Source of the DNA: Streptomyces iakyrus
GTDB lineage: Bacteria > Actinomycetota > Actinomycetes > Streptomycetales > Streptomycetaceae
Reading direction: 5' to 3'
Length of the DNA: 64,000 nt
NCBI RefSeq assembly: GCF_000717055.1
Contig: NZ_JNXI01000003.1
Location: 248,001-312,000, forward strand
The notes beneath the pieces are model-generated. The model made no database searches and was not told the origin of the DNA. It saw nothing but the letters and a program-made list of their open reading frames with translations. Below, piece after piece: positions 56,144 to 64,000 of the stretch. The first letter of the stretch is position 1; the number at the start of each line of letters is the position of its first letter. Both the position numbers and the translations under genes were made by a program.

Positions 56144-57469
56144 TCACTGGAACTGTGCGAAGAACCTCCAGATCTCCGCCTTGGTCCAGGTGGTGACGCC
56201 GCTTTCGTTGGGCGAGCCGTCGACCGGGCCGGGTATGTGGCCTCCGTCGAACGCGGCCCACTGAACCGGGTATCCGGCACGGCAGCCCGAGTAGGTGGTC
56301 GTGATGTGCGTTCGGCTGCCCGGGGCGGGCTCGCGCGGGCTTTGGGCGGTGCAGCCGTTGTTGCTGACGAACTTGTCGCGCAGGGACCTTCCTTGCCCGA
56401 TGCCGAGGACGTTGTCGCTGATGCCGTGGATTCCGAAGTAGGCGATGGGCTGAGTGCCACCACTGCACCCGCTGATCTGAGCGCCGGAGATGACGGCGAC
56501 GGCCCTGAAGACGTTCGCCCGGCTGCACGCGAGTGCGTAGCTCATGCCGCCGCCCCAGCTGAATCCGGTGGCGAAACGCTGTGCCGGGTTGACACAGAGG
56601 CCGCCCTCGATGCGCCGGATCATGTCGTCGACGAAGGTGACGTCCTCACCGCCCGCATTGGCCCAGCCGTTGCCGAGGCCCTGGGGGGCGACGAGGATCG
56701 CGGTGTTGTTCGACTGTTCCTGCTGGCCGTAGTAGGACCAGGCGTTCCCGCTCGTGCCGCCCGAGGCGACGTCACCGGCGGTTCCGCCCCGCCAGTGGAA
56801 CGCGAAGACCAGCCGGTAGCGGTGGCTGCTGTCGTAGTTGGCGGGGACCCTGAGGATGAAGCTGCGGCTCTTGCCGCCGCTCTGGATCGTGTGCGTACCG
56901 CTCGTCAGAGTCGGGGCGCTGCCGCATCCGCCGCCACCGGACGACAGCTTGACCAACTGCCATTGCTGGTTGGCGCCGCCCCAGTCGGTGTACTGGACGA
57001 CGTTGCCGCCGTCGGCGGTGGAGGCGCCCTGCACCTCTACCGCCTTGCTGCTGGTGCGGTTGACCAGCCGGACGTGGCCTCCGTCGGAGTCGGCCAGGCG
57101 GAACTGCTGGTTGGCCCCGTTGTGGTCGGCCCACTGCTGGATCGCGGCACCGTCTGCGGTCGAGGCGCCGGCCACGTCGAGAACCTTGCCCGAATGCCGG
57201 GCCTTGAGGCGGTAGAAGCCACCGCCCGAGTCCACGAACTGCCACTGCTGGTTGGCTCCGTCGGTGCGCGCCCACTGGCTGACCCGCGCGCCGTCGGCGG
57301 TGGACGTGCCGGAGACGTCCAGCGCCTTGCCGCTGTTGCGATTGACGAGGACGTACCAGGCATTGGTGTCCACCGTCGCCGCCTGGGCGGGCGGCGGATC
57401 CACCGCGGTGAGCATGCCGATGGCGAGGGTCGCCGCCACCACGGCGGCAACCCGGGACCACCAGGTCAT
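56144..57469 (-). CDS. Secreted CBM13 + feruloyl/PHB-depolymerase-family esterase
   Basis: 441 aa from ATG 57469, with AAAGGGG upstream. Signal peptide to about AQAATVD (~30). Residues ~32-170 are a three-repeat ricin-type CBM13 lectin domain ([23 protein letters not shown] repeats, each ending QQW/QQF). Residues ~180-441 are an alpha/beta hydrolase of the feruloyl-esterase/PHB-depolymerase type with nucleophile elbow GFSWGGGMS, HWRGG oxyanion region and a C-terminal FDGGHIPG His. It should release ferulic or acetyl groups from xylan. It is 32 bases downstream of the xylanase on the same strand, one operon. Confidence 0.9.
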   Translation of the reverse strand: MTWWSRVAAVVAATLAIGMLTAVDPPPAQAATVDTNAWYVLVNRNSGKALDVSGTSTADGARVSQWARTDGANQQWQFVDSGGGFYRLKARHSGKVLDVAGASTADGAAIQQWADHNGANQQFRLADSDGGHVRLVNRTSSKAVEVQGASTADGGNVVQYTDWGGANQQWQLVKLSSGGGGCGSAPTLTSGTHTIQSGGKSRSFILRVPANYDSSHRYRLVFAFHWRGGTAGDVASGGTSGNAWSYYGQQEQSNNTAILVAPQGLGNGWANAGGEDVTFVDDMIRRIEGGLCVNPAQRFATGFSWGGGMSYALACSRANVFRAVAVISGAQISGCSGGTQPIAYFGIHGISDNVLGIGQGRSLRDKFVSNNGCTAQSPREPAPGSRTHITTTYSGCRAGYPVQWAAFDGGHIPGPVDGSPNESGVTTWTKAEIWRFFAQFQ

Positions 57470-57501
57470 CGATGTCCCCTTTCGTTGGCGGGCCGGCCTT
57501 G

Positions 57502-59109
<1,608 letters not shown>

Positions 59110-59130
59110 CTAGACACGGATGATTGAGGG

Positions 59131-59150
59131 ATTGACGATGCATCGTCAAT
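59131..59150. promoter_or_regulatory. Perfect 20-bp palindrome ATTGACGATGCATCGTCAAT
   Basis: Ten-base arms with no spacer or mismatch, in the middle of the divergent region. Each arm begins with TTGAC, so both directions may share a -35-like element and one dimeric regulator. Confidence 0.7.
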
Positions 59151-59325
59151 ACTCACGACGGAGGAAGTTTCGGTTTGCGGTCCGAAGATTTCGACATCCC
59201 GGCAAGCTCGCCGACCACCACATCTCCCACTCCGGCGGGCGCGATATGTGGCCAGATCAGCAACAGCCCTTGACCGGAAGGCTTCACATTCCTAGCTTGT
59301 GGCGTCGAAGCTTCCGGGAATTCCG

Positions 59326-59337
59326 CGAAATGTTTCG
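59326..59337. promoter_or_regulatory. Xylan-type operator CGAAATGTTTCG
   Basis: CGAAA-TG-TTTCG resembles the CGAAA-N-TTTCG palindrome reported, as I recall, upstream of S. lividans xylanase genes. It lies 74 bases before the GH62 start and probably mediates xylan induction. Confidence 0.55.
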
Positions 59338-59410
59338 AGCTTCCATGCCTCCTGGCAGTCCGCTCTGCGGTTCATCGGGCTCACCCCCACCCCCGAAGGA
59401 GTGCCCTCTG

Positions 59411-60886
59411 ATGTGGTTTCGCCACACGTCCCCGATCCGTCCAAGACGCTTACTCGCCGTCCTCGCGCCCTTGCTGCTCGTGGCCACCTTCCTCGGCGCC
59501 CAGCCCGCCGGCGCGGCGACCGTGGACCCCAGCGCCTCGTACGTGCTGGTCAACCGCAATAGCGGCAAGGCCCTGGACGTCTACAACATGGCGACCGGCG
59601 ACGGCGCCCGCATCACTCAGTGGACGAGGAACGACCAGGCCCAGCAGCAGTGGCAGTTCGTCGACTCCGGGGGCGGCTACTACCGCATCAAGTCCCGTCA
59701 CTCGGACAAGGTCCTGGACGTCCACAACTGGTCCACCGCGAACGGCGGCTCGATCGTCCAGTGGGCCGACCTGAACGCCACCAACCAGCAGTGGCGGCTG
59801 GCCGACAGCTCCGACGGCTACGTGAGGCTCATCTCGCGCCACAGCAACAAGGCCCTCGAAGTGCAGGGCGCCTCCACCGCCGACAGCGCGAACATCGTCC
59901 AGTACGACGACTGGGGCGGCACCAACCAGCAGTGGCAGCTCGTCAAGGTCGGCGCCGACAACCCCGGCCCGTGCGGTCTTCCGTCGACATACCGCTGGAC
60001 TTCGACGGGCGCGCTGGCGCAGCCCAAGCCGGGATGGGCCTCGCTCAAGGACTTCACCGTCGTCCCCTACAACGGCAAGCAGCTCGTCTATGCGACGACG
60101 CACGGCGCCGCGGGAACGGGAAGGGCCTGGGGCTCGATGAACTTCACCCCGTTCACCAACTGGTCGGAGATGGCCTCGGCCGGCCAGAACACGATGTCGA
60201 ATTCCACGGTCGCGCCCACGCTCTTCTACTTCGCGCCGAAGAACATCTGGGTGCTCGCCTACCAGTGGGGCAGGACCGCCTTCGTCTACCGGACGTCGAG
60301 CGACCCCACCAACCCGAATGGCTGGTCGTCCGAGCAGCCTCTCTTCTCCGGAAGCATCGCCGACTCCGGAACCGGACCCATCGACCAGACGCTCATCGCC
60401 GACGGGACGAACATGTACCTGTTCTTCGCCGGCGACAACGGCAAGATCTACCGGGCCAGTATGCCGATCGGGAACTTCCCGGGCAGCTTCGGCTCGACCT
60501 CGACCGTGATCATGAGTGACACGAAGGAGAACCTGTTCGAAGCCCCGCAGGTCTACAAGCTCCAGGGCCAGAACCGCTACCTCATGATCGTCGAGGCGAT
60601 CGGCTCGCAGGGCCGCTACTTCCGCTCGTTCACGGCCACCAGCCTGAACGGCTCGTGGACACCCCAGGCCGCGACCGAGAGCAATCCCTTCGCCGGCAAG
60701 GCCAACAGTGGCGCCACCTGGACCAACGACATCAGCCATGGCGAACTGATCCGCACCAGCGCCGATCAGACCATGACCGTCGATCCCTGCAATCTGCAGT
60801 TGCTCTACCAGGGGCGCAGCCCCAACTCCGGTGGTGAGTACGGCCTCTGGCCCTACCGTCCGGGTTTGCTGACACTGCGGCGCTGA
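59411..60886 (+). CDS. Secreted alpha-L-arabinofuranosidase, CBM13 + GH62
   Basis: 491 aa from ATG 59411, with AAGGAG upstream. Signal ends near AGAATVD (~36). Residues ~38-175 are a CBM13 with three repeats very like those of the esterase at 56144 (shared [17 protein letters not shown] and [20 protein letters not shown]). The GH62 domain follows (about 183-491) with LKDFTVV (base Asp), [11 protein letters not shown] (pKa Asp) and LFEAPQVYK (acid Glu). GH62 removes arabinose from arabinoxylan by inversion, opening the chain to the xylanase next door. Confidence 0.95.
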
Positions 60887-60954: not shown

Positions 60955-61068
60955 TGCGTCCCCCGACCCGCAGCCCGAACGGCGTCCGACGCCCATGACG
61001 CCGGACCGGCTCGCCCCAGGCGACCGGATACAGTGCGCGGGAAGGCAGCCCAGTCACGGAGGAGCGGC

Positions 61069-62289
61069 GTGACCGACACGAACGACACCCGGCCGACAGA
61101 GGGTGAAACGAGAGCTCCGCGGCGGAGCCGGCTGCACCGCCTGATGCGCTGCCTCCCCCTGATCGCCCCCGTACTGCTGTGGACCGTGCCCTGCTGGGTG
61201 CTCCTGCACAGCGGTCAGCACTGGCCGCTACCGGTCACGCTGGTCGGCACCGCCCTGTTCGCCCTCGGCCTCGTCGGTATGCCGCTCGCGATGGCGCGCG
61301 GCCACGGCCGACGTCAGCAGGACCGGGCGGCGATCATCGGTGACATCCTCCTGGGCAGCAGCTGGGTCCTGTTCACCTGGTCCGTTCTGCTCGGCGTCCT
61401 GTTGCGGCTCGCCCTGACCGTAGGCGATGTCGGCGAGAGTCAGGACCGGGCCCGAGCCGTCACCTGGACTGTCCTCGCCGTGACCGCCGTACTGCTCGCC
61501 TGGGGGCACGCCGAGGCCCGCCGTGTGCCGCGCGTGCGCCGGCTCGACGTGCAACTGCCAAGACTGGGTGCCGGGTTGGACGGCTTGCGCGTCGTCCTCA
61601 TCACCGACACCCATTACGGCCCACTCGATCGCGCCCGCTGGTCGACACGGGTGTGCGAGACGGTGAACACCCTGGAAGCCGACCTGGTCTGCCACACCGG
61701 CGACATCGCGGACGGCACGGCCGAACGCCGTCGCGCCCAGGCCGCACCACTCGGAACCGTGCGGGCCACCCGGGCCCGGGTCTACGTCACGGGCAACCAC
61801 GAGTACTACAGCGAGGCCCAGGGCTGGATCGACCTGATGGACGAGTTGGGCTGGGAGCCGCTGCGCAACCGCCATCTGCTGCTCGACCGGGGAGGCGACA
61901 CCCTCGTGGTCGCCGGCGTGGATGACGTCACCGCCGCGTCCTCCGGCCTGGCGGGGCACCGCGCCGACCTGGCCCGCGCCTTGACCGGAGCCGACCCCCA
62001 CCTGCCCGTCCTGCTCCTGGCACACCAGCCCAAGTTCATCGACCGAGCAGCAGCCGCCGGCATCGACCTCCAACTCTCCGGCCACACCCACGGTGGCCAG
62101 ATCTGGCCCTTCCACCACCTGGTCCGCCTCGACCAGCCGGCCCTCGCCGGCCTCAGTCACCACGGCTCCCGCACCCTCCTCTACACCAGCCGCGGCACCG
62201 GCTTCTGGGGCCCGCCGTTCCGTCTCTTCGCCCCCAGCGAGATCACCCTGCTCGTACTCCGCTCCCCGCACCCGCCCACCTCGACCTAG
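61069..62289 (+). CDS. Membrane metallophosphoesterase (YkuE-like)
   Basis: 406 aa from GTG 61069, with GGAGGAG upstream. Four N-terminal membrane helices (about 27-45, 48-70, 85-110 and 125-145) precede a calcineurin-like phosphoesterase domain: VVLITDTHYGPL (metal Asp/His), CHTGDIADG, VTGNHEYYS (GNHE), LAHQPKF and LSGHTHGGQIWPF. It hydrolyses phosphoesters with two metals; the location suggests lipid-linked or surface substrates. There is no functional link to neighbours. Confidence 0.9.
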   Translation: MTDTNDTRPTEGETRAPRRSRLHRLMRCLPLIAPVLLWTVPCWVLLHSGQHWPLPVTLVGTALFALGLVGMPLAMARGHGRRQQDRAAIIGDILLGSSWVLFTWSVLLGVLLRLALTVGDVGESQDRARAVTWTVLAVTAVLLAWGHAEARRVPRVRRLDVQLPRLGAGLDGLRVVLITDTHYGPLDRARWSTRVCETVNTLEADLVCHTGDIADGTAERRRAQAAPLGTVRATRARVYVTGNHEYYSEAQGWIDLMDELGWEPLRNRHLLLDRGGDTLVVAGVDDVTAASSGLAGHRADLARALTGADPHLPVLLLAHQPKFIDRAAAAGIDLQLSGHTHGGQIWPFHHLVRLDQPALAGLSHHGSRTLLYTSRGTGFWGPPFRLFAPSEITLLVLRSPHPPTST

Positions 62290-62565
62290 CGGTTGACGCC
62301 TGCGCCGTGCGCAAGGCCCCGCCCGGCTCAGGAAAAGAACCCGGACCCGCGCCGGGCTGACGGTTGCGGCCCCGGTGCACAACCGCACCTGAAGGGGACG
62401 CCCGTTCGATGGACGTATTTCCGATCCGGCGGGAAGCGACGGAAGACGAGATGCGGATTCCCGTGATTCCCGGCCTCGATCTTCATTCATCTGCTTGGAT
62501 TCATTATCGGTTGGCGAGCGTGCAGGGGCCGCTCTGCGCTCACTCGGTTATGCAAGGAGCAGGAT

Positions 62566-63231
62566 TTGCCGCTACCTGTGATCGTCGGTGCCGTCGTGTT
62601 GTCGGGAGCGATCGGGACGGCTCTCACGGTCCGTCAGCTCAAACGCCCAGCGAAGATCATCCTGCTGGGTGAAGGCATGAGCGGCAAGACCACGCTGCTC
62701 AACACCTGGCAGGGCAAGTGGGACGAGCCGGTGCACCGGACCCATCCAGCGGGCGAGTTCATCGGAAAGATCCGACTGGACACAGGGAAGAAGGTTCTCT
62801 GGATCGACAAGCCGCTCACGTTCAGGAACGTCAGGGACTTCAGCGGGATGGACGAAATCCTGGACGCCTCGCGAGACGGCGTGGAAGCAGCCCAATACAT
62901 CCTCTACCTCATCAAGGCACCGCAGCTCGAAGCCGATGAGGAAAACCCCGGAGCGTCCGAGGCCTATGAGCGGCTCATCGCTGACGCCGCTCGCATCAAG
63001 AGATACAGCACGAAGATCAAAAAGGTCATCCTCGTGATCACCTTTACCGACAAGGACTCCCGATACGAACTCCTCGGCCAAGCCGCATATACGACTCGTG
63101 TACGCGGACAGCTCAGTGACCTCATCAGCCTGCTGAGCATGCGCAACAAGACCAAGGTGGTGGCCGGCAGCCTCGCCACACGTGAATCCGCCGAGCTCCT
63201 GGCGGGCGAAGTCATCCAGGCGATGCTATGA
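62566..63231 (+). CDS. Membrane-anchored Ras-like GTPase
   Basis: 221 aa from TTG 62566, with AAGGAG six bases upstream. An N-terminal helix (about 4-22) anchors the protein. The G domain then has G1 GEGMSGKT (35-42), a probable G3 DFSG (91-94) and G4 TDKD (161-164, in place of NKxD). The core is close to the small Ras/Arf-like GTPases found in bacterial signalling and conflict loci. It starts an operon: the next gene overlaps it by ATGA. Codon use is noticeably less GC-biased than in the rest of the window, suggesting transfer. It probably switches a partner encoded downstream. Confidence 0.85.
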   Translation: MPLPVIVGAVVLSGAIGTALTVRQLKRPAKIILLGEGMSGKTTLLNTWQGKWDEPVHRTHPAGEFIGKIRLDTGKKVLWIDKPLTFRNVRDFSGMDEILDASRDGVEAAQYILYLIKAPQLEADEENPGASEAYERLIADAARIKRYSTKIKKVILVITFTDKDSRYELLGQAAYTTRVRGQLSDLISLLSMRNKTKVVAGSLATRESAELLAGEVIQAML

Positions 63232-63731
63232 GTGTCCACCTGCAACTGGTGTACGCGGAGTACGAGAGCGGCGAGCCGCCCTTCGTCTGGCTCAAAGGAA
63301 CGCGCCGGCGGTCCGAGGAGAAGCGAACGGCGATCCGGTGGATCGGCAAGGTCTGCCGGCTGGGGCGGGAGCGCCGGGGCGAGCCCGGCCTGGTGGTCCG
63401 CCACCGGGAATGGCTGTTGATCCAGACAACAGTCGGACTGGGCCACGACGGCAACGGACCTCAGGGCGTCGTATGCATCGTCAAAGGCCCCGGCTCCGCG
63501 GTCGACTGGGAGTCAGCGGTCACAGAACGGATCACCGAGGTACTGCTCGACGGCAGGATCACTGTGGACCGTGAGGAGTTCCGCTCCGTTCTCGCATGGG
63601 CCGCCAGATCGAGGGTCGACGACACGAAGCAGGCTCTGAAGACCATGCTGGGGGGCCAATTGGAGGCCGCCAGGACCAGAATGACGCGAAGCGACAAGAA
63701 GACAGATGGGGAACATGCGGATTCCGTATGA
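63228..63731 (+). CDS. Uncharacterised protein coupled to the GTPase
   Basis: 167 aa, ATG overlapping the GTPase stop (ATGA). I do not recognise it. The N-terminus VHLQLVYAEYESGEPPFVWL is strand-rich, WLLIQTTVGLGHDGNGPQGVVCIV follows, and the C-terminus is helical and charged. By position it should be a regulator or effector of the GTPase, such as an activating protein. The strand-rich start vaguely recalls GAP1-N domains found beside bacterial GTPases, but I cannot confirm this. Confidence 0.75.
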   Translation: MSVHLQLVYAEYESGEPPFVWLKGTRRRSEEKRTAIRWIGKVCRLGRERRGEPGLVVRHREWLLIQTTVGLGHDGNGPQGVVCIVKGPGSAVDWESAVTERITEVLLDGRITVDREEFRSVLAWAARSRVDDTKQALKTMLGGQLEAARTRMTRSDKKTDGEHADSV

Positions 63732-64000
63732 ACTGGCCGATCGGCTGCTGACCGTATCGCTGGAGGATTTCGTTCGCATATCCGACGATGATCCGGAGCG
63801 GCTGCGCGATCATCGCATCACGATCGTGCCGGTTCCGCTGTTCGGTCGTTGGAGGCGCTTCCCCGAACTGCGGGAGACCGTACTGCACCCCGATCTGGCC
63901 TATGTGCGCGATCGCGACTCCGCCCACCGTTACGTGGCGGCGGACAACGCGATCCAGGGTACGGCGTTGCGGAAGTGCCGTCTCGCACTCAAGGTGTGCA
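63715..64000 (+). CDS. Uncharacterised protein, third gene of the GTPase operon (cut by the right edge)
   Basis: At least 95 residues, beginning at ATG 63715 (or 63706 in frame) inside the end of the previous gene. It opens MRIPYELADRLLTVSLEDF and continues with HRITIVPVPLFGRWRRFPEL, RETVLHPDLAYVRDRDSAH and YVAADNAIQGTALRKCRLAL. There is no known domain in the visible part. The overlap with the preceding gene shows that it belongs to the same transcript. The rest lies outside the window. Confidence 0.7.
   Translation, partial: MRIPYELADRLLTVSLEDFVRISDDDPERLRDHRITIVPVPLFGRWRRFPELRETVLHPDLAYVRDRDSAHRYVAADNAIQGTALRKCRLALKVC

Follow-up and report, generated by a model that had tools for sequence, protein, structure and literature searches.

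The right-hand end of a 64,000-nucleotide stretch of the Streptomyces iakyrus genome (NZ_JNXI01000003.1, positions 248,001-312,000; hereafter the window, to which positions refer unless stated otherwise) carries a compact cassette of three overlapping genes. They encode a small GTPase with a predicted N-terminal membrane anchor, a protein with a predicted longin-like fold (P2) and a third protein without a recognised family (P3). Sequence from this contig was read over 19 kb (L002), past the end of the window. Sequence comparisons support a hitherto uncharacterised GTPase module that is mobile between genomic locations. The chances appear about even that it is a self-contained, horizontally moving switch cassette in which a membrane GTPase serves for longin-type docking of P2 and P3, and a biological role in anti-phage or anti-element defence falls slightly short of even. 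Judged from sequences and a structural model, what would be new here is a prokaryotic small-GTPase module in which a membrane anchor is combined with a partner of longin-type topology and a novel third protein.

The three genes and their products

The GTPase gene (62566..63231, plus strand, 221 amino acids (aa)) overlaps the P2 gene (63228..63731, plus strand, 167 aa) by 4 nucleotides (nt), ATGA, and P2 in turn overlaps the P3 gene by 26 nt. P3 (276 aa, plus strand) extends from 63706 to about 64536 (L002:6707-7537), with its first 98 codons inside the window, to 64000. Open reading frame (ORF) calling thus bore out the arrangement given in the first-pass annotation, a TTG-started GTPase gene coupled through ATGA to a 167-aa protein that overlaps a third one. 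The TTG start is supported by an AAGGAG Shine-Dalgarno sequence at 62554-62559, six nt 5' of the TTG; this sequence, its spacing and the TTG are identical in all four Streptomyces copies compared.

The GTPase motifs G1 (GEGMSGKT in the window), G3 and G4 were present in all seven GTPases tabulated, with a G4 that lacks the usual N-K. Of the motifs proposed at first, GEGMSGKT and DFSG stand, while TDKD gives way to TFTD as the G4, because D162 occupies a column conserved in all seven aligned sequences, where TFTD, TFAD, THTD or SHAD follows a hydrophobic strand. The window GTPase gave weak Arf, G-alpha and MMR_HSR1 matches in Pfam, all under the cut-off. Among its relatives, P0020 equals the Arf cut-off, the protein from genome G533 (P0043) passes the Arf, Ras and MMR_HSR1 cut-offs and that from genome G690 (P0046) passes the MMR_HSR1 cut-off. 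The motifs, together with the profile matches of the relatives, identify a small GTPase of the Ras/Arf-like TRAFAC type. In the seven tabulated sequences the residue after the G3 motif DxSG is M, L, R or D, never the usual catalytic Gln, and GTP hydrolysis is therefore probably slow or partner-assisted, perhaps by P2.

The N-terminal anchor that had been proposed was recovered as a prediction, in the form of a hydrophobic stretch at residues 4-22 (62575..62631, plus strand) with a maximum of 2.0 in a 19-residue Kyte-Doolittle window. This stretch was the hydropathy maximum in all seven GTPases computed, and the six others scored 1.8-2.3 with alignment gaps in some windows counted as zero.

An AlphaFold2 model of P2 alone had a mean predicted local distance difference test (pLDDT) score of 79 and a predicted template modelling score of 0.71, with ten-residue blocks at pLDDT 75-93 over residues 1-130. 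Its elements are strands (E) and helices (H) in the order E4-12, E19-22, H29-45, E47-51, E54-59, E62-67, E79-86, H94-108 and H115-154, with short strands at 71-73 and 111-113. The model has the topology expected of a longin domain, a core of strand-strand-helix-three strands-helix-helix with no N-terminal helix and a second C-terminal helix. Longin and roadblock folds are told apart here as in PMC10933270. The predicted domain comprises residues ~1-117 and is followed by a long C-terminal helix, and the top structural row for the model in a VIA-align fold comparison was 1nrj_A. No longin family was found for P2 in Pfam at E <= 1 or in a PDB sequence search at E <= 10, and we therefore call the protein longin-like rather than longin; the model predicts a fold of the GTPase-regulating or GTPase-docking kind.

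As had been anticipated, neither partner matched a known family above the cut-off in Pfam, NCBIfam, PADLOC or PHROGs. For P2 the DUF1707 match at E 0.013 was noise, as were the other sub-threshold matches of the two proteins, among them unnamed PHROGs at E 0.003-0.07. The PDB profile search with P2 gave nothing convincing (best match a collagen VI chain, E 0.04), nor did a P3 profile against PDB sequences. Of the partner folds suggested in the first-pass annotation, GAP1-N was not matched and neither an EAD nor a named effector domain came to light; the longin-like prediction for P2 takes their place.

P2 and P3 are a single protein in four sequences (P0033-P0036), and this fusion makes it very likely that they act together as one unit. 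The P3 part of the fusion model was too weak for a fold search.

Distribution and genomic settings

Searches of 5.8 billion proteins returned 19 GTPases, 9 P2s and 11 P3s, counts that include the window's own GTPase and P2, and its P3 only as a member of a 95% cluster. The named hosts were Streptomyces, Kitasatospora and Actinomadura, with Sphaerisporangium in addition for the GTPase. The GTPase and a partner have adjacent locus tags in Actinomadura meridiana (GCM10022254_60520/60510) and in S. qaidamensis (A4E84_05470/05475). The cassette is rare: P3 occurred, with that of the window included, in three genomes among the 295 sampled from the genus, in 2 of 394 of the class (the window's genome and G533), in 1 of 246 of the phylum sample (the window's genome) and in 1 of 196 of the order of G533 (G533 itself; G690 was not among the matches and may lie outside the sample). 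The GTPase was found in 1 of the 394 genomes of the class at E <= 1e-8, again that of the window.

We compared 800 bp upstream of four Streptomyces copies in pairs. Similarity to the window extends over ~183 bp in G229, which delimits a leader at 62383..62565 (plus strand), over ~100 bp in G260 (from 62463) and over ~75 bp in NBC_00620 (from 62492), and then ends. Downstream, similarity among the copies stops ~3 nt past the P3 stop codon. No sigma-70-like match was found in the leader. The outer neighbours L002_1, L002_2, L002_9 and L002_10 are common to G000 and G229, while the copies in G260 and NBC_00620 are located elsewhere, the latter next to TniQ and TniB genes.

The GC content at third codon positions (GC3) was 0.784 for the GTPase, 0.804 for P2 and 0.776 for P3 against a window mean of 0.910 (sd 0.045, n=57 ORFs from a simple ORF caller, the GTPase and P2 included), which agrees with the less GC-rich codon use remarked on earlier; the GTPase had the lowest value of the 57. 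The cassettes of the relatives were also broadly low in GC3 relative to their neighbours, with a few exceptions among the neighbours. The ratio of nonsynonymous to synonymous substitutions (dN/dS) in four pairs of copies was low for the GTPase (0.10-0.18) and P3 (0.12-0.15) and moderate for P2 (0.28-0.38), showing that these are constrained genes under purifying selection. The low GC3, the patchy presence and the different chromosomal sites fit a mobile accessory cassette better than core signalling, and the horizontal movement that had been suspected is supported.

On its 3' side P3 is met by a large convergent ORF on the minus strand (1753 aa, L002:7649-12910), so that the operon is complete with three genes. 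The view of the cassette as an uncharacterised GTPase module stands, and the idea that it opens a longer system does not. In G229 the place of the convergent ORF is taken by a gene for a SUKH-1 protein. The ORF 5' of the cassette (61033-62289), presumably of the metallophosphoesterase type, lies outside it, because G229 has an NmrA-like gene there and eight relatives have the ORF without the flanks of the window. Within 1.5 kb on either side of the ORF these eight share nothing with the window's genome, and the search for an empty site of the window copy yielded none; no other genome matched the deacetylase/permease pair downstream of it as one stretch. Just left of the cassette, at 56144-60886, three adjacent ORFs on both strands, which we take to be secreted-enzyme genes, contain similar repeated QW-rich segments, presumably ricin-type.

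A class-wide search with P3 gave a relative in G533 (E 3.6e-5), from which another was found in G690, and the homology of both to the P3 of the window lineage is solid at the sequence level. Both loci have the same layout, in which a GTPase whose N terminus has a hydrophobic stretch comes first, followed by a middle gene and P3. The GTPase and middle genes overlap by 4 nt in each, and the overlaps between the middle gene and P3 are 35 and 13 nt. The two GTPases are of the same kind and very diverged (17-21% identity), and a profile of the Streptomyces-side GTPases matched them at E 0.16 and 0.23 only. An independent test did not relate the middle genes to the Streptomyces P2. A hidden Markov model of alignment A7 did find them; this was discounted as circular since both are rows of A7. 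We also dropped four of the six genomes obtained with the G533 P3 (L017-L020), in which the matches span only 53-72 residues and the ORFs at the match sites are presumably of the sugar-kinase (ROK) type, leaving 2 carriers among 197 genomes.

Both distant copies are located within an MZA/BREX-like island. A sister island exists without the cassette, and the comparison of G533 with G757 provides a clean empty site. The defence islands on the nrdJ side hold further recurrent genes. An ORF of 78-84 aa was seen in G533 (L012:8152-8388), where it stands directly before the cassette, in G757 (L057:12086-12322) and in G715 (L059:13175-13429). A protein of 447-477 aa whose internal repeat ends in TITLxGLNR (L012:10294-11637 and L057:12439-13872) adjoins Vsr in G533, and this copy had no PADLOC or NCBIfam match.

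Comparison with known systems

One of the closest known systems is the eukaryotic signal recognition particle (SRP) receptor, in which SR-beta, an Arf-related protein with a membrane anchor, holds SR-alpha. The cassette resembles SR-beta and the SRX domain of SR-alpha in pairing a GTPase that has a predicted membrane anchor with a predicted longin-like domain; 1nrj_A stood in the top structural row for P2, and the predicted anchor recurs in all seven GTPases. The Pfam SRPRB cut-off (25 bits) was missed by the GTPases of G690 (20.5), G533 (15.9) and P0020 (12.7), and SRPRB was not listed for the window GTPase at E <= 1. The cassette differs in being a bacterial operon and in its P3, in which no SRP-type GTPase domain was found.

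MglA-MglB and the conservons (Cvn A-D) likewise join a bacterial small GTPase to a protein from the roadblock/longin superfold. In contrast to these, P2 is predicted to be of the longin type, with no Robl_LC7 match in Pfam and, for P3, no match at all, and the GTPase has a predicted anchor of its own. The three-gene operon also lacks the CvnA histidine kinase, the CvnB roadblock protein and CvnC.

The DO-GTPase/GAP1 systems, as described in PMC7159879, share with the cassette a mobile neighbourhood around a TRAFAC GTPase, sometimes anchored by a transmembrane segment, and a downstream partner; the cassette differs from that description in having a single GTPase. P0020 has a DO-GTPase2 match below the cut-off (20.0 of 27 bits), and no GAP1, GASH or FNIII domain was matched in P2 or P3, near or distant. 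As a possible counterpart to the conserved Glu in the Walker B region of those systems, an acidic pair D-E follows G3 in the near family (DFSGMDE), while G533 (DVSGDPS) and G690 (DSSGRIS) have no such Glu.

BREX type 2 (Pgl) and MZA-like islands lie next to the two distant copies in the genome, whereas the cassette proteins have no convincing model in PADLOC-DB 2.0.0. The window GTPase and P2 matched no family there at E <= 1, and full-length P3 of three lineages, the fused P0035 and the G533 middle gene matched none at E <= 0.1. The distant GTPases gave weak partial matches only (LeoA at E 1e-4 to 0.021, others from 1.6e-3) and the G690 middle gene a single match at 0.01. No published description of such a cassette was found in the literature searched. 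The module would work like the SR-beta/SRX or MglA/MglB pairs, and we assign it to none of the SR-beta, conservon, DO-GTPase/GAP1 or PADLOC systems.

Proposed mechanism and alternatives

A single N-terminal helix would anchor the GTPase in the cytoplasmic membrane and leave the G domain on the cytosolic side, and P2 would be the longin-like partner of the GTPase. By analogy to SR-beta, which holds SR-alpha through the SRX longin domain, P2 probably docks on the GTPase in one of its nucleotide states and in this way keeps P3 at the membrane. P3 may be the output or the sensor of anti-phage or anti-element defence, as the context of its two distant relatives suggests.

Defence is the likeliest purpose because of the mobility, the rarity and the island context of the distant copies. 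Against it stand the Streptomyces copies, which adjoin a SUKH-1 protein, signalling genes or a transposon and beside which no defence neighbours were seen; for this reason we place defence a little below an even chance. The conflict role of the first-pass annotation thus draws on the context of two distant relatives and gains nothing from the Streptomyces neighbourhoods. A new defence system on the SR-beta/longin pattern, in which an anchored Arf-like GTPase senses infection by way of its nucleotide state and a longin adaptor recruits P3 to the membrane as an effector of a new family, we put forward tentatively and consider somewhat unlikely as a whole.

An unlikely alternative is a module for signalling, cell polarity or development in the manner of the actinobacterial conservons or MglA/MglB, serving host physiology rather than conflict. 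Prokaryotes are known to use a small GTPase with a roadblock/longin-type partner for signalling (PMC4316618, PMC3521125). This reading is at odds with an operon devoid of signalling partners such as a histidine kinase or CvnC, and with the very patchy presence (3/295), the different chromosomal sites and the low GC3.

The cassette could also be an accessory regulator that tunes or tethers the MZA/BREX-like island and is not autonomous, which we regard as decidedly improbable. Both distant copies lie in that island, one P3 stop codon overlaps the pglZ stop codon by 4 nt, and both carriers fall within the 7 of 193 genomes with the island ATPase (counted in another sample of that family, which may differ in composition from the first). 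Yet the sister island does without the cassette, five other island stretches of 19.9 kb had no A7, A8 or A9 profile match at E <= 0.01, and the Streptomyces copies stand in the other settings named above, that of the window next to what we take to be secreted-enzyme genes.

A selfish maintenance cassette of the addiction or toxin-antitoxin kind, in which the GTPase and P2 restrain a harmful P3, would suit the compact, mobile and tightly coupled genes and the P2-P3 fusions but is very unlikely, given that no toxin family was matched, that P3 had no match on plasmids (tblastn with P0001 and P0041) or phages (P0001), that P3 evolves slowly (dN/dS 0.12-0.15) and that the three-gene form with a GTPase is, to our knowledge, unlike known toxin-antitoxin pairs. 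Viral contigs also gave no P3 match. The GTPase search of these contigs gave two loci, and in the one examined the match was the P-loop stretch of a larger ORF, presumably of the primase/helicase type.

The cassette is directly testable since it is small, has clean borders and comes with an empty-site control. If the reading is right, bacteria would be found to have a small-GTPase switch among their mobile or defence cassettes. The pairing of a longin domain with a membrane GTPase is best documented in eukaryotes and Asgard archaea, and a derivation from roadblock proteins is assumed. Its existence in bacteria as a mobile conflict cassette, if true, would bear on the origin of eukaryotic GTPase/longin pairs such as the SRP receptor, TRAPP and Mon1-Ccz1.
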